From: Dunaliella salina | Taxonomy: Eukaryota; Chlorophyta; Chlorophyceae; Chlamydomonadales; Dunaliellaceae | Assembly (NCBI GenBank): GCA_002284615.2 | Contig: MU069556.1 | Span: 326,823 to 342,350 of the forward strand | Direction: 5' to 3' | DNA length: 15,528 nt | Shown here: positions 193 to 13,143 of the stretch, one piece after another | Layout of the letters: the number at the start of each line of letters is the position of its first letter | Position numbering within the stretch: position 1 is the first letter of the stretch | Program-made: the position numbers and the translations under genes | Notes under the pieces: model-generated | Database searches by the model: none | What the model was told of the DNA's origin: nothing | What the model saw: the letters and a program-made list of their open reading frames with translations, nothing else

Positions 193-541
193 GCAAGACT
201 CTTTGTATCTCAACTTCAACAGACCATCATCAAAATTCAGCACAACTCACTCAAGGCGCAGGAAAGGTAGAAGGTACAGGCTGACACGCATAGGCACAAT
301 GTCAAATATTCAGTTGGGGCACGTTGCCTCTTCTTCAGGGCACAAGCTAAGGGCACAAGCAAAGGGCACAAGGAAATTTCCCCCTTGGATTCATTGGGCC
401 TTTTACAGTCAAGGAGCAGCTAGGCAAGGTCATTGTGCGATTGCAGTTGCATTTAAGCGATCGAATTCATCCAGTCTTCCATGTGTCTATTCTTAGGCTG
501 CATCATAAATCCGAGCACACTGTCACACCCCCACTGCCCCT
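193..541 (+). pseudogene. Ty3/gypsy integrase C-terminal remnant
   Basis: This is the decayed end of a retrotransposon integrase, the enzyme that inserts the DNA copy into the host genome. In one frame from 193 it reads ARLFVSQLQQ, then SLKAQER, a TAG at 268-270, and KVQADTHRHNVKYSVGARCL. That is the usual chromovirus pattern of a basic helix (KAQERQKxxAD) followed by a short beta segment. After frame shifts it continues from 399 as PFTVKEQLGKV and then SDRIHPVFHVSILRLHH, matching the integrase signature GPFxVxE...HPVFHVSxLRxHH. Three frames and an internal stop show it is dead. The chromodomain at 542-844 follows in the expected place. Traces of the preceding GFxPxTP segment may exist near 110-150 but are too weak to call. 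Confidence 0.8.
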
Positions 542-844
542 GTGCAAGTTAATGCTGATGGTGTTCCTGTCTGTGAGGTTAAAGAGGTGCTGGCGCATAA
601 ACCGCTGAAGCAGAATAGGCAGAACACATGGCAGTTTCTGATGCAATACAAAGGCTATGGCCATGAACAAAATTCACGGGAACCATACGTAAACATAGCC
701 AGCCCGAATATCACATTGCAACCATACTGGTATTCTCTGAAAGGCATTCAAAAGTGTCCTGAACGTGGACTCAAATGCAAGGCTCCTCAGGCAATTGTGC
801 GTCCAAAGGCAACAGCGTTGAGCTCTGCTCATGAGCAAGGCTAA
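542..844 (+). pseudogene. Chromodomain of a Ty3/gypsy chromovirus
   Basis: An open stretch of 100 codons begins with VQVNADGVPV. It then shows the chromodomain pattern: EVKEVLAHK at residues 12-20, FLMQYKGYG at 32-40, NSREPYVNI at 44-52 and LQPYW at 59-63. Chromodomains at the end of chromovirus integrases bind methylated histone tails and direct insertion into heterochromatin. Two usual tryptophans are changed: the W of VKWKGYG is Tyr36, and the W of NTWEP is Arg46. Methyl-lysine binding is therefore probably impaired. It lies in a different frame from the preceding integrase stretch, so a frameshift separates them. The first codon is GTG and is only the edge of the open frame, not a real start. 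Residues after about 63 are low in recognisable motifs. Confidence 0.82.
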
Positions 845-1184
845 GCATGCAGGCAGGCACGGAGATCACCATTTGTGCATCCCTCATGCATGCGTAGGCA
901 ACGCGCAGCTGTAAAATTGTGCAAGCTTTCCAGGCATAGACAGACTGAACGCACGTGAAAAGGCAATTTTAGGCTAGAATTTTTCCAAACATTCAGGCTT
1001 CTCAGGCAATAACTGGCATTCACAAGGCTTGAGGCTTTTTCTGGAATTCAGACAGCTGTTGGTTGGAAGTCACTTTGAGTGTATTCACGCACCTCAGAAT
1101 TCTGGAATTTTTGTTAAACCAGATTCTTATGGCCGGGACGCCCATAAACAGGCAGTAGGGAATATAACAATATCAGGCTTTTCG
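845..1184. other. Non-coding stretch, possibly chromovirus LTR remnant
   Basis: No domain is readable here on either strand. The stretch is rich in the tetramer AGGC. Near its right edge, 1171-1183 (TATCAGGCTTTTC) repeats exactly the 13 bases at 68-80 and shares a TAAC a few bases upstream. The two sites bracket the integrase and chromodomain remnant, as LTR-related or flanking sequence would. That reading is an inference from a short match. Confidence 0.3.
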
Positions 1185-1379
1185 AATACTTCCCACTGTC
1201 AGGTTCTAGAGACAGGTGCTTCTAGTAACCCTCCAGATCCACATTAGCATTCTCTTTTTCATACCTTGTGGTGGAGGGGGCACACGGCTCTTTTTTGAGC
1301 CAATGTGTCTCCTTTTCCTTAATCGATGTAGGGAGAGTTTCTCTGCCTACGTAGTTTTTCTTTTCTTTTCTTTTCTTAG
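1185..1379 (+). repeat. Family X 3' tail, copy A
   Basis: This stretch is a direct repeat of 3710-3902, about 88% identical by eye. It encodes the last residues NTSHCQVLETGASSNPPDPH with a TAG at 1245-1247. A 3' UTR of about 130 bp follows and ends in a (TTTTC)n run closed by TTAG. Simple-repeat tails are typical of the 3' ends of non-LTR retrotransposons. Only about 60 bp of coding sequence precedes the stop, so this copy is severely 5'-truncated. Copy B begins within a few bases of its end. Confidence 0.85.
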
Positions 1380-1380
1380 C

Positions 1381-2160
1381 AAGAAGATCAAAGACTCTTT
1401 TTCAAGAGCCCTCCCAACTCACATCCATACTGCCCTCCAAAAATGAGCTTTGGTAACCCAAGAAAAAATGGCCTCCCCACTAGACCACGACCCACAATAC
1501 CAGAATTATTGGAGTGCGGACTCCCGAGACTCTCTTTTTGGTGCCATGCATAGTGCCTTGTCATCCGAATTCACTGGCTTTTCAGTCTGTCATCCCATTC
1601 ATGGCGAGGGAATAATGACCCAAGCTTTGCAACATGCCATTTACTCTGCCATTCTCAACACAGAAGCTACTGCTACATTCATGTTCCTCCCAACTTGGAA
1701 TAAGGACATGATAACCAACCCCTACTCCAAACTTTTCACTGCCTACCCCCACCTCTATTACGAACTTGGAACAATACCTCGCGAAAAACCTGATTACAGT
1801 GCCCCTCAATCCTGCCCTAACCAAGAGATACCTTTACCTAAGCATACCTGGGACCTTCGTATCTTTGCTGTTTGGAACGCTGCAGCTCGAGTCCATCTTA
1901 ACATCCATAACAAAGACTGGCTACAAGGCCTGAAAGGAGATTTGAAAGAAGCCACAGAGTGGAAACTGACGAATGTCAGCAGCCACCCTGTCCTAAATCC
2001 CATGCATGTCCACATGCCAGGTTTTAATAAACTGGAACGCCTTTCATTTGCCAAACAACACATCTCCAAGCACCATAGAAATTCACACATTAGTATCCAA
2101 GATACAGACTTGGTGCCCAGCCAATCTAGTACTCTCCTAACTCTCAAAGTTGCTGACTAG
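1381..2160 (+). pseudogene. Methyltransferase-like domain of family X, copy B
   Basis: The frame opens with KKIKDSFSRALPTHIHTALQK, a TGA at 1444, then ALVTQEKMASPLD. This aligns with copy D at 6087-6180. The 236 codons from 1450 to the TAG at 2158 contain the conserved block FGA (30-32), FTGFSVCHPIH (41-51), an alpha-helical stretch, TATFMFLPTW (about 74-83), YSKLFTAYPH and a later beta segment DLRIFAVW. The order of an FGA motif, a G-x-S-x-x-x-P turn, a helix and a strand ending LPxW resembles the core of N6-adenine methyltransferases with an NPP[FY] motif, including PCIF1-like and phage Dam-like enzymes. The catalytic Asn position would be His48, so activity is unlikely. The fold assignment is an inference. 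The homology to copy D is directly visible. Confidence 0.5.
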
Positions 2161-2565
2161 AGAACATGGGCATACACAGATGGCAGCTGCCTTGCCCAGA
2201 ACGGTAAGCAAGAAATTGGAGCAGGCGTCTACTGCCCATCCACTGACAGCAAGAACTTCGTAGAACCAAACGGTGCTGGGATTATTAAAACCATCACTAT
2301 AGCTGAATTAGCAGCAATTGCTGCTGCTATCATCACCAAAAATGCAGATATTGCATCAGGCAGCCTCATCTTTTTTAACCAAATACGTAAACAACTTCTT
2401 TATCCTGAAAGACACCTCAGGCATATCCAAGGAGACGTCCTTAAAATGATTTGAACTCTCATTAGAGACTTCCATACCAAAATTCGAATTTACAAGGTGA
2501 AGTCCCATGCTGGCATCGCTGGAAATGAATGTGCAGATGCTATTGCAAAACATCAAGCAAAGCAA
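2161..2565 (+). pseudogene. RNase H domain of family X, copy B
   Basis: RNase H removes RNA from RNA-DNA hybrids during retrotransposition. In the frame of the preceding domain, right after the TAG at 2158, the sequence reads WAYTDGSC (first catalytic Asp at 2179-2181), TIAELAAI (catalytic Glu at 2305-2307), IASGSLIFFNQIRKQ, a TGA at 2452-2454, then YKVKSHAGIAGNECADAIAK (His at 2506-2508, last catalytic Asp at 2536-2538). Three of the four metal-binding acids are intact. The third, normally Asp in T/S-D-S, is Gly (GGC at 2359-2361). The internal TGA follows ATGATT and could derive from CGA by a CpG transition. This is a clear RNase HI-type fold of the LINE kind, but inactivated by two stops and the lost acid. 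Confidence 0.92.
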
Positions 2566-2946
2566 GCCCAGAACTGCGTGGCAGACACCAAGATTCCTGG
2601 TGCAGGCCCTGGTGGAAATCCATTTACAAATATTTTCTGGTTAGCCAAGGAAGAAAGAGTGCATGCTGCAGGTACATCTGCAGGTCCAACGCCCGTCCAC
2701 AAGCTCACCTATTTCCCCAATCTTCAAGATGCCCTCAAATCCCACATGCATTCTAATCACAAGCTTGGATATGCCAATGCCAGAACAGGCTACTACTCTA
2801 AATATAAAAACTTATTACCGCAAGTAGATTAAAAGTCAGCAATGCCTTCAGAAATATGCCAAAAATTTCCATACCCATGAAGCGTACCATCCTGCAGTAC
2901 CGCACAGGCACCCTCTACAACCAAAAACATGCAGTACGTTTTATGT
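2566..2946 (+). pseudogene. Linker after RNase H, family X copy B
   Basis: The open frame continues from RNase H with KLTYFPNLQDALKSHMHSNH, GYANARTGYYSKYKNLLPQV and a TAA at 2830-2832. One frame over, from about 2832, it reads KVSNAFRNMPKISIPMKRTI and then LQYRTGTLYNQKHAVRF. The YRTGTLYNQKHA segment is the usual lead-in to the LINE zinc finger (compare SLLNRYCAHNF in antisense copy C). No enzymatic motif is visible. The stop and frame change at about 2832 mark a small indel. Confidence 0.7.
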
Positions 2947-3080
2947 TTTAAAAGGTTAACTGATCCATCTTGCCCCCTCCCAGGCTGCCATCACTTGGAT
3001 AGCGCACTACACATGCTCTCAGGCTGCCAAAACCATATCATCTCCAACATGAACACTGAACGCATAACATCGCAGGCAGA
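2947..3080 (+). pseudogene. CCHC zinc finger before the nuclease, copy B
   Basis: Reading FKRLTDPSCPLPGCHHLDSA then LHMLSGCQNHIISNMNTER gives a C-x4-C-x7-H-x4-C finger. In R2-type LINEs a CCHC finger followed by an RHN-like motif sits just before the restriction-like endonuclease and contributes to DNA binding. Here the reading reaches ER and then shifts: GAACGCATAAC lacks one C compared with what would encode ERHN. A 1-bp deletion near 3064 therefore broke the protein. Antisense copy C keeps an intact NRHHAG at this place. Confidence 0.8.
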
Positions 3081-3602
3081 ATGATTACAAAATCCCTCAA
3101 AAAATGCCCCGTAGGGGCAGGCCTAGTATATACAGACATAGGAAGCGATTCTAAGCTTGCTCAACACAACCTCCAACCCCCTACACATGCCTCAAACAGA
3201 ACTTTACCTGCCTACTTCTTCCCTCGCAACCTCCCAGAGAGGAAAAGACTCAACTCCAGTTGACCAGATGCTGTTCTGATCACCCCTTTTAATGCCAAAC
3301 ATACTTCTAACGGTGTTTCTCCTACCCATTCCCGTCACGCTTTGCGCAGCTCCTCACAGAGGACCACCAGAACTAGCCACATGAGACAACCCCATGAACT
3401 TCATGCAAATGAACGCCATGTGCACCTAATAGAAATCAAGTTCTGTGAAGACACAAGGCCAGTGCATCAGTTGAATGCGGTAAAGCAGCAGAATGCAGAC
3501 CTTTGTAAATTTATTAACGCTAAAGCTGTTACAATTCACCCTATTCTCCTGGATGTAAGTGAAACTATTTACACTGAACATACCCTGAAGCAATTCAAAT
3601 AA
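3081..3602 (+). pseudogene. PD-(D/E)xK restriction-like endonuclease, copy B
   Basis: This would be the nuclease that nicks target DNA during insertion. One frame runs from 3065 to the TAA at 3600-3602 with a single internal TGA at 3261-3263. The TGA sits immediately before PDAVLITPF (PD at 3264-3269), where RPD is expected, so CGA to TGA is likely. After a Ser/Thr-rich insertion comes HVHLIEIKFCEDTRPVHQL with E-I-K at 3432-3440. Then come ADLCKFINAKAVTIHPILL and TIYTEHTLKQFK. PD, a long spacer, then E-x-K on a beta strand, with a Gln-containing helix after, is the restriction-like endonuclease core. Its place after a CCHC finger matches R2-type LINEs. The PD to ExK spacing of about 54 residues is long, presumably because of the low-complexity insertion. 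Confidence 0.72.
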
Positions 3603-3772
3603 CTACAATTGGATCACCAGCGTGCCACAAAGCTTGCTCAACAACTTCATGCCCATTCTTTTAATATGCCCACAAACTAGTCACCACACGCCGCGCTACT
3701 GAAAACAATAATACTTCCCACAGCCAGGTCCGGGAGCCAGGTGCTCCTAGTAACCCTCCAGATCCACATTAG
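3603..3772 (+). pseudogene. C-terminal end of family X protein, copy B
   Basis: After the TAA at 3600 the same frame reads LQLDHQRATKLAQQLHAHSF. It then shifts at about 3665 to YAHKLVTTRRATENNNTSHS and QVREPGAPSNPPDPH, with the terminal TAG at 3770-3772. The final 20 residues match those of tail copy A (CQVLETGASSNPPDPH), which identifies this as the true C-terminus of the family. The segment is basic and has no recognised domain. Confidence 0.75.
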
Positions 3773-3902
3773 CATTCTCTTTTGCATTCCTTGTGATGGA
3801 GGGGGCACACAGCTCTTTTTTGAGCCTTTGTGTCTCCTCTTCCTTAATTGATGTAGGGAGAGTTTTCTCTGCTTATGTAGTTCTTCTTTTCTTTTCTTTC
3901 AG
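3710..3902 (+). repeat. Family X 3' tail, copy B
   Basis: Direct repeat of 1185-1379, covering the last coding residues, the TAG stop, a UTR with GGAGGGGGCACAC and CTCTTTTTTGAGCC, and a terminal (TTTTC)n run ending TTTCAG. Mismatches are spread evenly and are mostly transitions, consistent with two old copies of one family end rather than a recent duplication. The conserved UTR is probably the RNA region recognised by the mobilising reverse transcriptase. Confidence 0.88.
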
Positions 3903-3952
3903 GAAGTGTTGGCATGGTCCAGAAGGCATCATGCCTGTCAAGAAAAAGGCTA

Positions 3953-4201
3953 GTAACGATTCATTCTTTTATTGACAGGGGAAGTAGGCTTTGGCAAAAA
4001 GAGTAGTAGTATCCTGTCTTGGTGTTGGCTAATTCAATGGACAGAGCAGAGCTAGCTGTAAATTCTATAGCCCTGTAGCAAGGGCACACTTCTATTGCAA
4101 CTGGTAGTCCTTCAGCACTGAATCAGATTAGGAAACAGTTCCTCAAACCCATGGGTGTTTCCACCCACATACAGCATGATAGTGGAGTTAGGTTGCAGTA
4201 A
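3953..4201 (+). pseudogene. RNase H fragment, copy F
   Basis: Too broken for a long open frame, but one frame reads HSFIDRGS (Asp at 3974-3976, the TDGS motif with one extra residue), two TAGs at 4004-4009, LANSMDRAELAVNSIAL (Glu at 4049-4051), a TAG at 4076-4078, then SIATGSPSALNQIRKQFLKP, ending TAA at 4199-4201. The RAEL and IATxSxSALxQIRKQ segments match copy B clearly. The third catalytic acid is again Gly (GGT at 4103-4105) instead of Asp. The fragment begins about 50 bp after the tail of copy B and lacks the C-terminal SHxGxxGNExAD part. Confidence 0.75.
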
Positions 4202-4690
4202 AGGAAACTAAAAGGCACACAAAACCTACACTAGACACAGCTAGCTAGGTGGGAACCAGAAACAGGTCTGATGAGGACCTGGTGGGTTGTTCACCGCGCC
4301 CCTGGCCGTCCGGACGGTCCTTTTCCTGCTCTCCTCCACCGCACGCCCAGCAGACACCCCCCCCCCCCCGAAGTCCCCTGAAAATGAAGAGCATGTCTGG
4401 TGTTCATGATGGATAGCAATTTTTAGATGGTGTGGCAGCTAAGCTTTGTTGCTAGTGGTTTAGCCTTTTGCTTGGTGTGGCCCAGATTTCTGAGAAATTC
4501 AATTATACATTCATTGTGAACAGTGCCAGCCACACCAAATGAGATGATGTGCAGAGTCACTCTGTTATTTCTTTAAATTTCTTGATCTGCGGTATTGAAC
4601 TCTGGTTACAGTGTGAGAGTGCTGAGCTGCACGTTCAAGAGTGATATAGGGTTGGTGTTGGACCAAATATTTTCCAACTCAACGAGGTGG
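4202..4690. other. Stretch with no recognised gene
   Basis: No domain is readable on either strand. Local features are a GC-rich island at about 4290-4375, a perfect 12-bp palindrome CCGTCCGGACGG at 4306-4317, and a run of 13 C at 4357-4369. The rest is ordinary mixed-composition sequence. Confidence 0.6.
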
Positions 4691-4701
4691 ATATCCCTGT
4701 T

Positions 4702-5110
4702 TTAATCAGGGATCTTGGAGGGATCCAGGTGAATTGGTTCACTTGGAATAGAGCGCACAAAAATAGCGTCTGGGCAGCTTTGGTGGCTGAGGAGCCAGTA
4801 CCAGCAAGGAGAACCCAGGCAGGGATGCTGTGCGTTGTGTATCAGGGGCCTGCATGCCCCGTTCCTGGAGTTTCTCATTACTGCAGCCATCCATATCAAT
4901 AAGGGATGAGCCATACCGGCTTTTACTGAGGGCTCTAGCACAGAGACCAAGGCCTGCATGGTGTCTGTTGGTGTGCATCCCACTAATTGCTGAGTTTGTA
5001 CATCTGACGAGTATGTGATCAATGTTGTCTGTATTATTACAGAGTGGGCATCTTCCAGGATTGGAAGACAAGTTGAAATTGTGTGCACAGTACCTGTTTA
5101 ATAAAGACAC
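4702..5110 (-). pseudogene. Antisense zinc finger and nuclease start, copy C
   Basis: On the minus strand from 5110 the frame reads SLLNRYCAHNFNLSSNPGR, then CPLCNNTDNIDHILVRC, a C-x2-C-x7-H-x4-C finger (plus-strand 5000-5050). Then come NRHHAG (4958-4966), ALSKSRYGSSLIDMDGCSNEKL and SLPGFSLLVLAPQPPKLPRR. In another frame the start of the nuclease is visible as CPDAIFVRSIPSEP (PD at 4768-4773). The order and spacing match copy B at 2955-3290 (CPLPGC...ERxxAGRM...LPAYFFPRNLPERKR...PDAVLI). The copy stops before the E-x-K. It is better preserved in the finger than copy B and lies head to head with copy D, about 90 bp apart. Confidence 0.72.
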
Positions 5111-5201
5111 ACTTGCAATTACAATACCTCATTCATTGGGAGCCAATGATAATTGAAAGGCGGGCTCTAAAGATCTGCCAATCCTTTGAAAGACAGGCCT
5201 C

Positions 5202-6095
5202 ATGGTAGCTCATCTTGAGCCCTTCCCCGGAAGCCAAAAAGAAGATGATACCTGCCAGATCTGCTGGACTCCCACCAGCTTGGAACATGAAGAACATAAC
5301 TTCATTGACATGCCTGAATGTGACACATGCCAGCGCACATATCACTGGAAATGCCTACTCCACCACAACCTCTGCACCCCATCACAGCGCACCCAGGCAG
5401 ACCAAATGTCCACTTGGGAAGGCCCTTCTTGCACTCACCTTACTAATTCTCAAAAAAGACAGCGTACCAAGACAGCAGAAGAAACAAAGATGGCCAAAGT
5501 CACCTGGCAGCCCACTTGGGAACCAACTTCTGTGCTCCTTGAACATCCAGACTTCAAGGACTATGTCCACAGATTCGAGCAATCTCATACAGACAACTTT
5601 TCTTCTCCACAACAACACTCACCACCTGCTGACGACACTGTAGACAACCTCACCCGTCAAGGTTTTGAGGGAGCCACACAACCTCCAAACAGGCACTGGC
5701 GCACAGCCCAGGACCACCCCATGCGCAACAAGGCACACTTCGACATCAAGACTACTAATCCCCAGACAGACATCATACCAACAAAGAGGTGTGAAATTTG
5801 GCTGAGAAATGTGGATCTCATGGTACCAGGATCCAATAAGGATAGTGATGAACAACCAAAAATCCCTCTTGCATTCACCACTCAAGCTGCATGCATTCAT
5901 GACACCAAAGGGAAATGCGCAGGCATTATCACCCCTCACCGTCTTCAAATTCTGCTTCAAGCATACAGTGCGGCCAGGCAAGCTGGCCTACACGCTTCAA
6001 TTCAGCCCCCTGTTCAAAATGAAGCAACAGAAATGATGAGTCTTCCACACAGGTACACTTCCCATCTTACAAAAGGCAATCAGAAAATAAAATAA
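5202..6095 (+). pseudogene. PHD finger and N-terminal part of family X, copy D
   Basis: The longest open frame of family X here is 297 codons. Residues 18-77 form a PHD-type finger: C18-x2-C21, C40-x2-C43, H48-x2-C51, then W72 and C77. PHD fingers read histone tails and occur in some LINE proteins. The seventh ligand, expected two residues after W72, is Gly74 (GGC where TGC would be expected), so one zinc site is incomplete. Residues 100-126 (VTWQPTWEPTSVLLEHPDF and onward) resemble the W-x(n)-TWEP core of a chromodomain. A Pro/His/Gln-rich linker follows, then RCEIWLRNVDLMVPGS (about 202-217), a beta-rich block of unknown role also seen at 11288-11560. The frame ends at TAA 6093-6095, but homology to copy B continues past it (QKIK then the VTQE block), so this is a premature stop. 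The true start is uncertain; ATG 5202 is the first in frame after upstream stops. Confidence 0.75.
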
Positions 6096-6506
6096 TCCAA
6101 TTCTTTGCGCACACCAGTTAACATTCTTACAGCTCTCATGCGCTGTGTGATAGTTACCCAAGAAATACTTGTGAGCCCCCTTGATTATGATATGCACTTC
6201 AAAGCATACTGGAGCCCTTTTGCTCGAGACAGAGTTTTTGGGGCCAACACTGATATGTTTGGAACCAAATTTACAGGGTTCTCCTTTTGCCACCCTGCCT
6301 ATGATGATGAATTCATCTACTACCTTGTCATGCATGCCCTGTCTTCAATCACTAGCACAACTACCCCAACGGCCGCCTTCATGCTCCTCCCCAGCCTGAT
6401 GGGATGGACCAAAAAAGGATACATGCGCTTGTTCACATGTTACCCACACCATGCCACAATCCTAGCCAAATTCCCCTCAGGGAGTCTAACGTTCCAGCCA
6501 CCTTAA
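6096..6506 (+). pseudogene. Methyltransferase-like domain, copy D
   Basis: In the same frame as 5202-6095, after the TAA, the sequence reads SNSLRTPVNILTALMRCVIV then TQEILVSPLDYD, FGANTDMFGTKFTGFSFCHP with AYDD after it, a helix, TAAFMLLPSLMGW, YMRLFTCYPHH, ending at TAA 6504-6506. It aligns residue by residue with copy B: VTQE, SPLD, FGA, FTGFSxCHP, HA, TAxFMxLP and LFTxYPH are all shared. The motif at the putative NPP[FY] position is CHPAY (6288-6302). The N6-adenine methyltransferase comparison is an inference; see copy B for the argument. Confidence 0.5.
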
Positions 6507-6857
6507 GCCTATCTAACTCCTCTTGCTCCTCCCAAAAAGAATATAAGACAGGTGCAACTTATAGCCTTTTGGAAAAATGAAGGAAATCAAAAGCTCTTCT
6601 GTAATAACCCAAATTGGCTTGAGGGTCTAAAACAAGAGATCTATGTAGGAAGCTGGTACCACAGAAGCAGTCAACAGTTTGCAGAAATTCAAAACACTAT
6701 TCTCTCTTTTAAAGCGCCCTGCACATGGAGGAAACAATTTGCACTCTTGCATCATGACACACACAACATTTTCAGAGTCTGCAGCCAACAAAGAGCCATC
6801 ACACCTAACGCATAACCATACCTGCAACTCCTGCAACCAAAGATCCCAGGCTGGCGA
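6507..6857 (+). pseudogene. Linker between methyltransferase-like domain and RNase H, copy D
   Basis: The same frame continues past the TAA at 6504 with RQVQLIAFWKNEGNQKLFC and NNPNWLEGLKQEI, matching DLRIFAVW...NKDWLQGLKGDL of copy B. It runs to another TAA at 6813-6815. The strand-turn-helix pattern suggests this is still part of the folded domain upstream of RNase H. Its last 107 bases (6751-6857) have an inverted copy at 7027-7133. Confidence 0.6.
6751..6857 (+). repeat. Inverted repeat, left arm
   Basis: This 107-bp arm matches the reverse complement of 7027-7133 without gaps, with 13 mismatches by hand count (about 88%). The arm is the sequence just upstream of the RNase H motif in copy D. 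Confidence 0.9.
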
Positions 6858-7017
6858 CACCTAACATTTACAGATGGCAGTGTCATAAAGTCCAACAACA
6901 AGAATACACAGCAAGCAGGAGCATTCTTTTTCATCTCGGAAGACGTCTCCTCCTCTGAAAGTGTCACCTGCACAATAAATCCCAAGAGCCATGGTCCCAC
7001 TTATACAATTAAATGCC
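6858..7017 (+). pseudogene. Truncated RNase H N-terminus, copy D
   Basis: In the same frame, WRHLTFTDGSVIKSNNK (first catalytic Asp at 6873-6875) is followed by QAGAFFFISEDV and NPKSHGPTYTIKCQ. This is the first beta hairpin of RNase H. The sequence is lost exactly where the TIxRAEL motif should follow, at the junction with a 14-bp tandem duplication and an inverted fragment. Only one of the four catalytic acids remains. Confidence 0.72.
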
Positions 7018-7042
7018 AGCTTAGGATCGCCAGCTTAGGATC
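7015..7042. repeat. 14-bp perfect tandem duplication
   Basis: GCCAGCTTAGGATC occurs twice back to back (7015-7028 and 7029-7042) exactly at the junction between the truncated RNase H and the inverted arm. Such a short duplication is typical of end-joining repair or template slippage at a rearrangement point. Confidence 0.9.
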
Positions 7043-7133
7043 TTTGGTTGCAGAGGTTGCAGGTATGGCTGTTCGTTAGGTGTGCTGGCTCTTTGTTGGC
7101 TGCAGACTTCAAAAATGTTGTGCGTGTCGTGAT
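7027..7133 (-). repeat. Inverted repeat, right arm (family X fragment, copy G)
   Basis: Reverse-complement copy of 6751-6857, separated by 169 bp. It is an antisense piece of the same family joined to the broken end of copy D. Weak similarity may continue to about 7165 but is not convincing. Confidence 0.88.
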
Positions 7134-7654
7134 CCATACTGCATTTCTCCTAATACCATGCTAAGGCACAACAAGCGGCCATGCCGAATTTCTCATCTGA
7201 AATCAGGTTTGCCTGCCTTTTATGGGGCATCCTGTGGGTGTATGCGGCCAAAAATGACCAGAAATCTGCTATTTTCAAGCGCAGAATGCCTAATAGGCAA
7301 CAGTTCCCCCAGATTAGCAAATCCATGGATAATTATCCATATCCAATACTTATAAGTATTGATCTCACTCATCCACTCATGCAAAAACTGTCCCATTTGG
7401 ACCAGGTCCAGGTCTGGATTTATTTTATGTGATCTGAGCTGAAGTGACGCTTTTGGGAGCTCCCTTAATTCCCCTGGGGTCGATTTTTGGAATTCTAAGT
7501 ATGCACAGGTAGCCTGCTGCTGTGGCCTTGGCAGAGCATCGGGTCAGGCAAGAGTCCAGGTCCGTCAATCAAGGGGTTAGTCAACCATGGTGCTGTCGTG
7601 TGTGGCTCACATTCAAATGTAAATCCCTCATCACTGGCACGAGCTTGATGGCAT
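7134..7654. other. Stretch with no recognised gene
   Basis: Short open frames here have no readable motifs and look like chance. No repeat structure stands out apart from the duplication that starts at 7655. Confidence 0.6.
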
Positions 7655-7762: not shown

Positions 7763-8088
7763 GTGGTGCGCCCGCGGGCCAATGGCCGGGGCACTGAGAG
7801 GGTGAATGTGCTGGTGCCATACATTGCTCGGCTTTTCAAGCTTTTCTATGACAAGGCTCGCATCCCTGATTGTTGGAAAAAGGTTAAGCTGGCCCCTTGT
7901 ACAAAAAGGGCCCTCTCCTTAAACCTAACTGCTACTGCATGCTGGCTTTTAGTGGCACAAAGCACTGCTTGTATGCTAATGTGATTTGTTCTCTTGTCAC
8001 AGACTGGTGCTTGGCGTCAATAAGATTCCTGACACACAATTTGGTTTCTGCCCAGGCAGGAACACCCTCCAGCCCATCTACATCTTAA
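7763..8088 (+). pseudogene. Reverse transcriptase fingers region
   Basis: The readable sequence is VLVPYIARLFKLFYDKARIP, then DCWKKVKLAP in frame 2, continued as YKKGPLLKPNCYCMLAFSG and LYANVICSLVTDWC in frame 1. The P-x-x-W-K-x-x-x-L-x-P-x-Y-K-K-G pattern is the conserved start of LINE RT domains (motifs 0-1). A frameshift at about 7890-7900 and another at about 8015 separate it from the palm domain. The first few codons (RPRANGRG) do not look like RT and may be flanking sequence. Confidence 0.85.
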
Positions 8089-9479
8089 GGCACCTACAGC
8101 ATGCTGCATGCACGATCTAGCCTGGGCGATCTAGCCGGCTACACACAGCTTTCATTGACTTTAAGCAAGCCTACAATATCATCTTTAGGCAGGCACTCTG
8201 GCAGCACCTGCAGCGCACACGCATGCCCACTCCTCTCTTGTCCATCATGGAAAGTATGTACGATGCTGATGAGTATATTTTGAGGGATGGACAGAAGACT
8301 GCTCGGGTGAGCCCTAACACGGGTGAGCCCTAACACGGTGAAAAGCAGGAATGTCCTTTATCCCCTCTGCTTTTCTCTCTGTCTGTGAATGACATTGATG
8401 AAATTGTGGAGAGGGTGCAAGGTGCTGTCACGGGTACAGCTGAGTTCCATGTGACGCACATGTTGTACGCTGATGACCTGACTCTGATGGCCAATGATCC
8501 TCATGCTTTGCAGGCCATGCTGAATCGCTTGCATGCATATGCTCAGCAAAAGCACTTAATTATCAACACCGCAAAGTCTGAGGTAATTCACTTCAATTCC
8601 TCAGGCTCAGATTTGCCTGTGTTTCATGTTAAGGGGGTGCCACTGGCACACAAGGAGTCTTTTAAGTACCTCGGCATGACGTTTCACAAGCGGATGAGCA
8701 TGACTAAGTCCTCTGAGCATGCTACTGGTCCGTTCATGGCGTCTGCTTTTCAGGTCCGTCAATTTGTTCGTGAGCACTCTCTGGCAAATAGGCCATATGT
8801 CTCTCTGTGGCTTGGGAAGACGTATGTGGTTCCGGCTGGACTGTATGCAGGGCAGGTGTGGGGAACTGAGTACATTAAAGAGGGCAAGGAGTTTGCGAGT
8901 GACCTGCAAGTGCGGCACATGGGTTATCTAAAAAGCACGCTGGGTGTCAAACGTACCACTCCAAACTGGGCCGTTTTGCGGGAGTGTGGTCATGAGCCGC
9001 TCCAGTTTTATTGGTTCAGATCTGTTGTTAAAATGTATAATAGCATGCTCAGGTCCAATAGCAAGACGCTGAGAAGCGTGCTGAAAGTGGATCTGAACAT
9101 TCATTCTCATGAGCCTTCTTGCTGGACTACTCAAGTCTTAGATGCCCTTCAAGGCTTGCGGCGCTGTGATTCCTTTGTTGAAGCTGTGTGGCAGGGTACT
9201 CCTACTCCTACTCAAGAGTTCACTGCTGACCTCAGACACAGGTTGCGGGCAGTGTGGAAGGGTGTTGAGGGAGTAAACCCGCGAGAGACTTACAGTAAAT
9301 TGGCAACCTATCAAACTTCGTTTGCACTGCCTTTTGACCACAATGTGCGTGCCCCAGCCCGCTTACCAAGACACATGCATTTGGATCTGTCTCAACATGT
9401 CGTGAGGGATGTTAGCCGTTTCAGATTCAGGGCACACAGACTGAAGGCGGAGACAGGGGCTTGGGATTCTCTTGTGTGA
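8019..9479 (+). pseudogene. LINE reverse transcriptase palm and thumb
   Basis: One frame runs from 8019 to the TGA at 9477-9479 with two stops (TAG 8118-8120, TAA 8331-8333), the last 364 codons being open. Visible motifs are KIPDTQFGFCPGRNTLQPI (motif 2), TAFIDFKQAYNIIF (motif A, first catalytic Asp), QECPLSPLLFSLSVNDI (motif B), HMLYADDLTLMAN (motif C with the YADD catalytic pair), LNRLHAYAQQKHLIINTAKS (motif D region) and FKYLGMTF (motif E). The thumb includes VKRTTPNWAVLRECGHEPLQ and FYWFRSVVKMYNSML. RT copies element RNA into DNA at the target nick. Compared with usual LINE motifs, AYD is AYN and QGCPLSP is QECPLSP. The second weakens the dNTP pocket. A 16-bp tandem duplication at 8305-8336 creates the TAA. 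Confidence 0.97.
8305..8336 (+). repeat. 16-bp tandem duplication inside RT
   Basis: GGGTGAGCCCTAACAC is present twice (8305-8320, 8321-8336). The second copy brings TAA into frame just before motif B. The frames upstream and downstream agree as the sequence stands, so a compensating small deletion must lie next to the duplication. Confidence 0.92.
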
Positions 9480-9777
9480 TTGCTTTTCTTGTGATGAGAT
9501 TCAGGATGAAGTCCATGCCCTTTTGACGTGCAGAAACGCAGGTGTTTGTGATATGAGGAGAAAATTTGCTTACTTGTTCAGCTGCTTCTCTGGTGTTTTT
9601 TCAATGGAAGAACCTTATTTACAGCAAGTTAGTCTCCAAGTTGTGCATGAATTCCTCTTGCAACACAACAACAAGCTTTATTTGTTGATTTCTGAGCTTA
9701 TGGATATTATGTTGGCTGGCGAGGACCAGTCACAGGCCGATCAGTCGAACAATCTGGCTGAAGGCCCCCCCATTTAA
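9472..9777 (+). pseudogene. C-terminal CCHC knuckle of the LINE protein
   Basis: One frame over from RT, CDCFSCDEIQDEVHALLTC gives a C-x2-C-x7-H-x4-C knuckle. It follows the RT thumb end SRFRFRAHRLKAETGAWDS. Then come FSMEEPYLQQVSLQVVHEFL and NNKLYLLISELMDIML, a helical tail, and the TAA at 9775-9777. A one-base insertion near 9470 moved it out of the RT frame. The knuckle binds nucleic acid in LINE proteins. The first codon TTG is only the edge of the frame. Confidence 0.85.
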
Positions 9778-9797: not shown

Positions 9798-10641
9798 ATG
9801 CTTACACGGTTCACGCAACAAGCCAGATCAATGCTGCACCGTCAGAAGCTCACCTCCTACTGCCCGTTATCTGCTGCAGCTACGCCATTTTTCCAAATTC
9901 TACTTCCAGGAATTTCAATTTATTTGCACTTCACTCTCATTTCGTAATACTTTGTACTTGAAGCAAGGGATTAGTTCTTTGACTTCGTAAGGTTTCGTTT
10001 TTGGGTCAAATAATTACTAATTTACGAACCTATGATATTAGATTTTCAAGTCATGTGGTGAAAGTCACCTTGGGGTGTGAACACTACTACATTGAAGAAA
10101 ACCCAGGTTGGATGCCTTGATCCGCAATGCTTTCTGCCATATGAAAGCAGTGACCCATTAGCATGATCAAATACTGCAACCTTAACACTCCCCTGAGGTG
10201 GGTATCTGAACTGAGCCCAAGCCTGCAGCTGAGAGGTCCATTACAGATCTGCACAGTGGAATCCTTTCCCTCATACAATGCTCACAACTGGGTCATCACT
10301 GGTTTCGTGAAATCGATCTCCTGCATCAGAAGGCTCTTAAATTGCAATCATCGTCCCATATTCTATCTGTCCTAATCTAGGAGCTGAGCTTAAGTGTTCA
10401 GGATGACCAAAGCAATCGGAGATATGGCCTTCTACTTGCCAGCTGTTGCTACATAATCAATCCTGAAAAGCGACAACTTAGCAGAAACAAACACGCATTG
10501 GATCCCAGGAATCAATGAAGGCTGGAAGTCCCAATTCTATGCCCATTTAATGGCTGAGACGCAAAAGGATGAGCCAGAGCTTCTCATGCCTGCTGCCAAT
10601 CTTCGATTTGGAGACAGTGGAAGTGAGAGTCTATGCTGACA
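9798..10641. other. Stretch with no recognised gene
   Basis: No motif is readable in any of the short open frames, including those at 10087-10278 (-) and 10163-10375 (+). A stretch near 10494-10635 reads WIPGINEGWKSQFYAHLMAE and onward without a stop, but shows no domain I know. Confidence 0.55.
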
Positions 10642-10864
10642 CAGCCAGCGTGCATATAAAGGAAAGACTCAACAGCCAGCGTGCATATGAAGGAAAGACT
10701 CAACATCCAGCGTGCATATGAAGGAAAGATTCAACAGCCAGCTTGCATGAAGGAAAGACTCAACAGCCAGCGTGCATATGAAGGAAAGACCCAACAGCCA
10801 GCGTGCATATGAAGGAAAGACTCAACAGCCAGCGTGCATATGAAGGAAAGACCCAACAGCCAGC
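10642..10864. repeat. 31-bp minisatellite, about 7 copies
   Basis: Units start at 10642, 10673, 10704, 10735, 10764, 10795 and 10826, followed by a partial unit at 10857. The unit begins CAGCCAGCGTGCATATGAAG and continues GAAAGACTCAA. The fourth unit is 29 bp because it lacks AT, and several units carry C for T in GACTCAA. A period of 31 bp cannot keep a reading frame, so it is not coding. There are no variable spacers, so it is not a CRISPR array. Confidence 0.96.
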
Positions 10865-11287
10865 ACTGATAAACAGGGTCCCACCGACTTTTGATTAGGA
10901 AACCTCCTAATAAACAGATTCAAAAGTTCAACACAACAAACAGAAAATACAGCGACAAATCCCAGGTCCTCCACAACAAGATCACTATCAACTTAACGCG
11001 TCCACAAGCAGGTATGATGAAAGCTATGAATTCTGGACCACAGGCGTCGACCCTGTTACGCATGTGGAGCCCCACAATACAATGGACTCCCAACCAGAGA
11101 AGACGCCACCCCCAGCACTGCGGGGCATCTACTCCTTTTGGGTAGCATTTGTCTCAGGCACAAACTTTGTCCATTGGATGAAAAGTTTAAAGGCGCCCAA
11201 TCTTCACCCTCCATAAAGCACATGTTAGAGCCAAGCATGCTAAGACACATGACAGCCTCCTCATAAAAGTCTTTCCTGTGAGCATGT
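10865..11287. other. Stretch with no recognised gene
   Basis: Two short open frames without motifs. One frame reads YDESYEFWTTGVDPVTHVEP and then GIYSFWVAFVSGTNFVHWMK. This may be part of the same decayed unit as 11288-11560, but nothing in it can be assigned. Confidence 0.5.
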
Positions 11288-12774: not shown

Positions 12775-13035
12775 CTGGCTGCATGGCACAAGCACAAGCA
12801 TGACTGAATGGAAGCATGGCCGCATGCCCGCATGGCTGCATGGCACAAGTATGAGCATGGTTGCATGGATGCATAGCACAAGCACAAGCACGGTTGCATG
12901 GCTGCATGATTGCACGGCACAAGCCCAAGCATGGCTGCATGATTGCACGGCACAAGCCCAAGCATGGCTGCATGATTGCATGGCACAAGCGTGAGCATGG
13001 TCGCTTGGCTGCATGGCACGAGCAAAAACATGGCC
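12775..13035. repeat. 33-bp minisatellite rich in GCATGG and CACAAGC
   Basis: Clear units lie at 12855-12887, 12896-12928, 12929-12961, 12962-12994 and 12995-13027. The units at 12896 and 12929 are identical; each starts GCATGGCTGCATGATTGCAC. Earlier units from about 12775 are shorter and more diverged. Because 33 is a multiple of 3, open frames of up to 143 codons appear on both strands as 11-residue repeats. They are a product of the repeat, not evidence of genes. Confidence 0.93.
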
Positions 13036-13143
13036 AAAAGATTGTATAGCACAATCATGGAATAGAATCAAACTGAGTTCTACTGCACTTTCTGTACTTT
13101 TGCTCTGGGAAGAGCCAGCAAATGGCGAATGCATGCTTGAAAT

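Follow-up and report, generated by a model that had tools for sequence, protein, structure and literature searches.

The mobile-element copies in this window (the whole 15,528-nucleotide stretch of Dunaliella salina contig MU069556.1 that was analysed) are very probably dead, 5'-truncated members of two families, here called B and D, of one Dualen/RandI-like non-LTR retrotransposon. With similar confidence, we regard their methyltransferase-like (MTase-like) part as a true homologue of PCIF1, comprising a helical part and a Rossmann core, which has been kept across distant relatives. The intact element in all likelihood consists of one long ORF, encoding in order APE, reverse transcriptase (RT), a PHD finger, the PCIF1-derived domain, RNase H, a CCHC knuckle and a restriction-like endonuclease (RLE). 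It is equally probable that a Josephin-type domain precedes APE in some relatives, and that the ORF of family B is followed by a short-repeat tail. The features identified in the window are collected in Table 1.

Table 1 Features of the element copies in the window
Feature	Position	Strand	Evidence or remark
Copy A, 3' UTR and (TTTTC)n-type tail only, family B element	1184..1379	+	97% to L060 3' end over 1184-1369
Copy B, family B element lacking its 5' part and extending from shortly before the MTase core through the tail	1380..3905	+	91% to L060 over 1377-3895
Copy B PCIF1-like domain	1381..1972	+	PF12237 E 3.1e-4, 20.8 bits, cut-off of 31.1 not reached
Copy B motif IV, CHPIH	1588-1602	+	Within PCIF1-like domain
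Copy B RNase H, two pieces flanking a stop	2170..2559	+	PF00075 E 4.3e-6 and 6.9e-4
Copy B CCHC knuckle, CPLPGCHHLDSALHMLSGC	2971..3027	+	Frame reading; C and H columns near-invariant in alignment A2
Copy B putative restriction-like endonuclease core, PD...EIK	3240..3602	+	Stop is the codon preceding PD
Copy B 3' UTR and tail	3710..3905	+	
D-type copy, RNase H continuation	4041..4173	+	Corresponds to C666 8313-8445 (5108-7012 corresponds to C666 6411-8313)
Copy C, CCHC-region fragment, apparently of a third family	4739..5128	-	Frame read by eye
Copy D, family D element, truncated, spanning PHD to RNase H start	5108..7012	+	90-91% to C352 and C666
Copy D PHD-like finger	5253..5438	+	PF00628 E 0.064, under cut-off
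Copy D PCIF1-like helical and MTase region, start approximate	5870..6503	+	PF12237 E 3.2e-7, 30.5 bits against a cut-off of 31.1
Copy D motif IV, CHPAY	6288-6302	+	Within PCIF1-like region
Copy D RNase H start	6861..7007	+	Frame reading
Antisense family D piece, adjoining copy D	7021..7136	-	

The MTase-like domain, RNase H, CCHC knuckle and PD...E-x-K motif that the original prediction placed in copy B were all confirmed, and the repeat at 1185-1340 and 3710-3865 is real, its two members being 90% identical and corresponding to the 3' end of family B. For copy D, the MTase-like region and the start of RNase H held up and the PHD finger is visible but weak, whereas the proposed chromo-like segment was not confirmed and is provisionally rejected, since five short pieces of relatives gave no Chromo match in Pfam. 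Copy B begins at the residues KKIKDSF and copy D at about 5108, each being truncated at its 5' end. The D-type segment at 4041..4173 takes up the element sequence where copy D leaves off, so that the two perhaps represent one rearranged insertion.

Copies B and D had been joined into a single composite on the strength of their overlap. The overlapping parts are indeed homologous, but the composite unites two families of one architecture, which are 36% identical over 565 aa and have their domain order in common (34% identity in RNase H, 31% in the CCHC-RLE part). Identity of this extent together with the common order rules out B and D as unrelated families, and identity of only 36% rules them out as one family. 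In a first look, the genome yielded 5120 candidates for the B domain and 718 for a family D piece, unverified as copies in both cases, and the 150 and 40 places that were scored showed 80-100% and 91-100% identity, respectively. Copies of family B carry (TTTTC)n-type tails.

The truncated copies in the window show no RT, as the original prediction had stated, yet this does not hold for the element to which they belong. The family D copy C666 contains a 710-aa RT frame with a FADD motif, heading toward the PHD finger, of which the first 308 aa match RVT_1 at E 1.7e-22, and a second family D copy, C352, carries an APE domain (E 2.3e-12) further upstream; RT and PHD lie in different frames in decayed copies of this family. 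In the family B copy C24, RT, PHD, MTase and RNase H share one frame (1076-6691) in which three stops occur, and the CCHC-RLE part is read from a different frame. Moreover, a single ORF joins RT to the PHD-to-RNase-H part in the relatives P0013, P0022, P0027 and P0034. Since RT lies ahead of PHD in C24, in C666 and in these unbroken ORFs, it is part of the element. The suggestion that an RT would lie upstream of the PHD finger was thus borne out, although not as a separate ORF, given the single frame of C24, and RT precedes the PHD finger rather than standing between it and the nuclease.

The arrangement stands unbroken in natural ORFs from a public collection. In P0034 (2502 aa) APE, RT, PHD, PCIF1_WW and RNase H each exceed the Pfam cut-off. 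P0022 (3115 aa) has PCIF1_WW below cut-off and an additional Josephin-like domain slightly below it, P0027 (3061 aa) has its PHD under the cut-off, and in the Haematococcus protein P0031 Josephin is above it. PHD passes the cut-off in P0013, P0022 and P0034, and RNase H (PF00075) does so in L020, L052, L060 and P0034.

Because copies B and D in the window carry no RT, one might suppose an element without RT that depends on another LINE for mobilisation in trans, or an element of two ORFs. We consider this very improbable: RT precedes PHD in frame in C24, is found on one stretch with it in C666 and belongs to one ORF with it in the four relatives above, which rules out an RT-less or trans-mobilised element. 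With RT inside the element, mobilisation in trans by the LINE at 7763-9777, as originally proposed, is not needed. The RT of that LINE gives only a weak match to the RT profile of the present clade, scoring 27.5 bits across 150 of its 466 positions, and a PDB search with it returned nothing at E 0.001.

Toward the C-terminus, a CCHC knuckle is followed by PD...E-x-K, and in an alignment of 20 rows the P, D and E are invariant and the CCHC columns nearly so, while the K is not invariant. In P0022 and P0034, both with APE above cut-off, PD...E-x-K could be read by eye close to the C-terminus. C352 ends in an RLE-like part that can be aligned to that of L060, its PD reading PA where C666 reads PD. 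The RLE assignment, putative as it is, is based on this motif and the alignment. Its CCHC followed by a PD...E-x-K nuclease is also the arrangement of R2-type LINEs; an R2-type LINE was what the RLE model matched best in VIA, and what P0034 matched best by sequence in the PDB (E 4.2e-31, in the RT part). R2 elements are not known to carry APE, RNase H, a PHD finger or an MTase domain.

Dualen is described as encoding both APE and RLE, and RNase H has been reported for Dualen/RandI (PMC4640811). The presence of APE and a putative RLE in one element agrees with the definition in PMC4640811, RNase H is present as well, and the pointer to this group in the original prediction was a good one. Further likenesses are the green-algal host and a short-repeat tail in place of poly(A), with Dualen/RandI being recorded from green algae (PMC8226300) and cryptophytes (PMC12747079). 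However, the (TTTTC)n-type tail of family B differs from the tails (ATT)n and (CTATTT)n listed for green-algal RandI in PMC3747384, and the present element may be set apart by what lies between its RT and RNase H, namely a PHD finger and a PCIF1-derived domain. By the above definition, the element most likely works like a Dualen/RandI LINE and is one. In an RT tree with 46 relatives, the RT of family D fell beside P0030 (support 43), with six Haematococcus proteins close by; this tree, built by a quick method (LG+G4, midpoint root) with three long branches, serves to indicate neighbourhood only. No PCIF1-type domain in Dualen LINEs was reported among the literature matches listed, the best 4 to 30 of up to 241 papers, a set that leaves most subscription literature outside its scope and does not include the original Dualen description. 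Captured cytosine methyltransferases are known from other retrotransposons (PMC5890265), which resemble the present element in bearing a methyltransferase; as described there, they differ in the type of enzyme and in their hosts, which are dinoflagellates and charophytes.

Two observations identify the MTase-like part as PCIF1-derived. PF12237 exceeds its curated cut-off in L010, L060, L052 and P0034 (42.3 bits against 31.1 in the sister ORF L010), the window copies falling below it, and a fold test for PCIF1 was positive for the domain. As to its spread, the search with P0013 gave 47 proteins, P0013 being counted, and 30 of them have RT and RNase H among their precomputed domains; a domain profile built from 11 relatives, all outside these 30, matches 29 of them at E < 1e-5, P0064 being the exception. 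It is conceivable that the domain belongs to a different kind of Rossmann methyltransferase, such as the Dam type, and that it matches PCIF1 in the common fold only: phmmer comparisons of single sequences with PCIF1 in the PDB were weak (E 0.34 and 0.28), and PCIF1 was absent from the best 60 of 213 rows of the A1 profile search. We give this reading very little weight. The domain is a PCIF1 homologue, and its status as a cap methyltransferase is left at putative.

Unlike PCIF1/CAPAM, the cap-specific m6Am methyltransferase, the present domain is part of a retrotransposon polyprotein, and the NPPF of that enzyme is replaced in the elements by HPPY (as in P0009), HPIY (P0006), NPEY (P0020), FPGH and others. 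NPPF occurs in none of the 40 relatives having all four columns, and N stands first in nine. Among 161 columns, the first P ranks 19 in conservation, while columns 272, 274 and 275 rank just 89, 91 and 90. Since the catalytic loop is altered in most lineages, the domain may serve there as a module that binds RNA or SAM. This is our tentative preference, though at somewhat under an even chance, and such a module might, for instance, grip the RNA of the element itself at its capped or its 3' end.

A less probable reading, but one with points in its favour, is that of an active writer, in which the domain would transfer a methyl group to N6 of the cap adenosine on the element RNA (or to DNA adenine), at least in lineages like family D. 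Motif I is well kept, with P and L each present in 41 of 42 relatives, S in 32 of 42, and the form [ED]...[ST]PL readable in 33 of 41; conservation is among the highest at D251, G255, G267 and N366. In family D, 18 of 30 copies show HPPY and 16 show CHPPYDD, the latter fitting [DNSH]PP[YFW], given as the pattern for m6A enzymes in PMC7927073. Yet only four of the 40 relatives fit this pattern, two of which (P0053, with HPPF, and P0054) lack the motif I acid, and in family B the copies read HPI(Y/H) in 13 of 20 (CHPIYDEG in nine; two copies are unmatched and two gapped there). Changes to NPPF residues abolish the activity of METTL16, according to PMC7927073, and a change from NPPF to NPPH is offered as a reason for missing m6Am in the case of Drosophila PCIF1 (PMC9479742). 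Judging from these motifs, most lineages may keep the fold for binding, and a few, such as family D with its HPPY, could still methylate.

We also looked for selection on the domain by tallying shared differences between copies by codon position (1, 2, 3). In family B, RNase H (5, 3, 18) and the CCHC-RLE part (19, 13, 46) lean toward third positions, as does the MTase part (13, 5, 22) in a sample biased by the choice of copies on MTase protein score; the least biased sample, comprising 18 of the 20 copies chosen by RNase H DNA (the other two were unmatched), gave 10, 5, 16 (p 0.053). The corresponding counts for the family D MTase are 14, 16, 26, and an excess of third over first positions was absent elsewhere in this family, in PHD (3, 2, 2), the linker (18, 10, 18) and the part between (28, 15, 27). 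The third-position excess in the MTase part is a trend at most, agreeing with constraint without proving it; a stronger indication comes from the conservation of the domain in distant relatives.

By analogy with LINE biology, the element would move in cis by target-primed reverse transcription, and both 5' truncation and a repeat tail are seen on its copies. The PCIF1-derived domain could hold the element's own RNA in the manner suggested above, and the PHD finger would probably read histones at the target site. If so, the PCIF1-type domain would represent a new accessory module for target or template recognition by LINEs.

PCIF1 is treated in PMC8868631 as an enzyme of eukaryotes only, without prokaryotic homologues. 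A tblastn search of phages gave no match. A LINE-borne domain offers a possible route for the spread of PCIF1. The broader proposition, that a large green-algal clade of dual-nuclease LINEs carries a PCIF1-type cap reader or, in some lineages, writer for its own RNA, and that cellular PCIF1 shares a history with mobile elements, is speculative and in our judgement unlikely. Across copies and LINE relatives, the drifting active sites may provide a natural series of variants for functions of the PCIF1 fold besides NPPF catalysis.

The PCIF1-type domain occurs at 150 or more places in one algal genome, which are putative LINE copies. No scored place exceeded 47.3 bits and none was recognised as a cellular PCIF1, which exons could hide. 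PF12237 matches in algal genomes may be pieces of LINEs, and annotations should be read with this in mind; six gene models of Dunaliella salina contain family B-like fragments (80-88% identity). Lastly, the name of P0039 includes GHRQ, which we take to be a transcriptome accession, and reads as that of a complete transcript-assembly ORF, so that transcription of one or more such elements is probable.

Comparison with C666, a genomic family D copy used as the element coordinate reference, places the shared junction of window pieces 4041-4173 and 5108-7012 at its position 8313. Both pieces abut at this element position, as if derived from a single D-type insertion, which would have been split and then rearranged in order. 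At 1379-1381, copy A ends in its (TTTTC)n tail and the truncated copy B starts immediately afterwards, so that B possibly inserted within the tail of this sister element.

Other probable mobile-element pieces in the window
Feature	Position	Strand	Basis
Chromodomain-like piece	509-841		PF00385, E 4.8e-4, under cut-off
CCHC-region fragment	4739-5128	minus	sequence reading
Separate LINE (RT and downstream part)	8334-9777		RVT_1, E 2.6e-14

From its sequence, the CCHC-region fragment looks like a third family belonging to the same Dualen/RandI-like clade as families B and D. The RT of the separate LINE matches the RT profile of this clade only weakly (27.5 bits). Judged by eye, the chromodomain-like piece may be the end of a Gypsy-type element. 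Related LINE proteins (P0022, P0031 and P0061) carry a Josephin-like (deubiquitinase-type) domain on the N-terminal side. Tandem repeats occupy 10610-10895 (period of approximately 31 bases) and 12776-13066 (approximately 33 bases).
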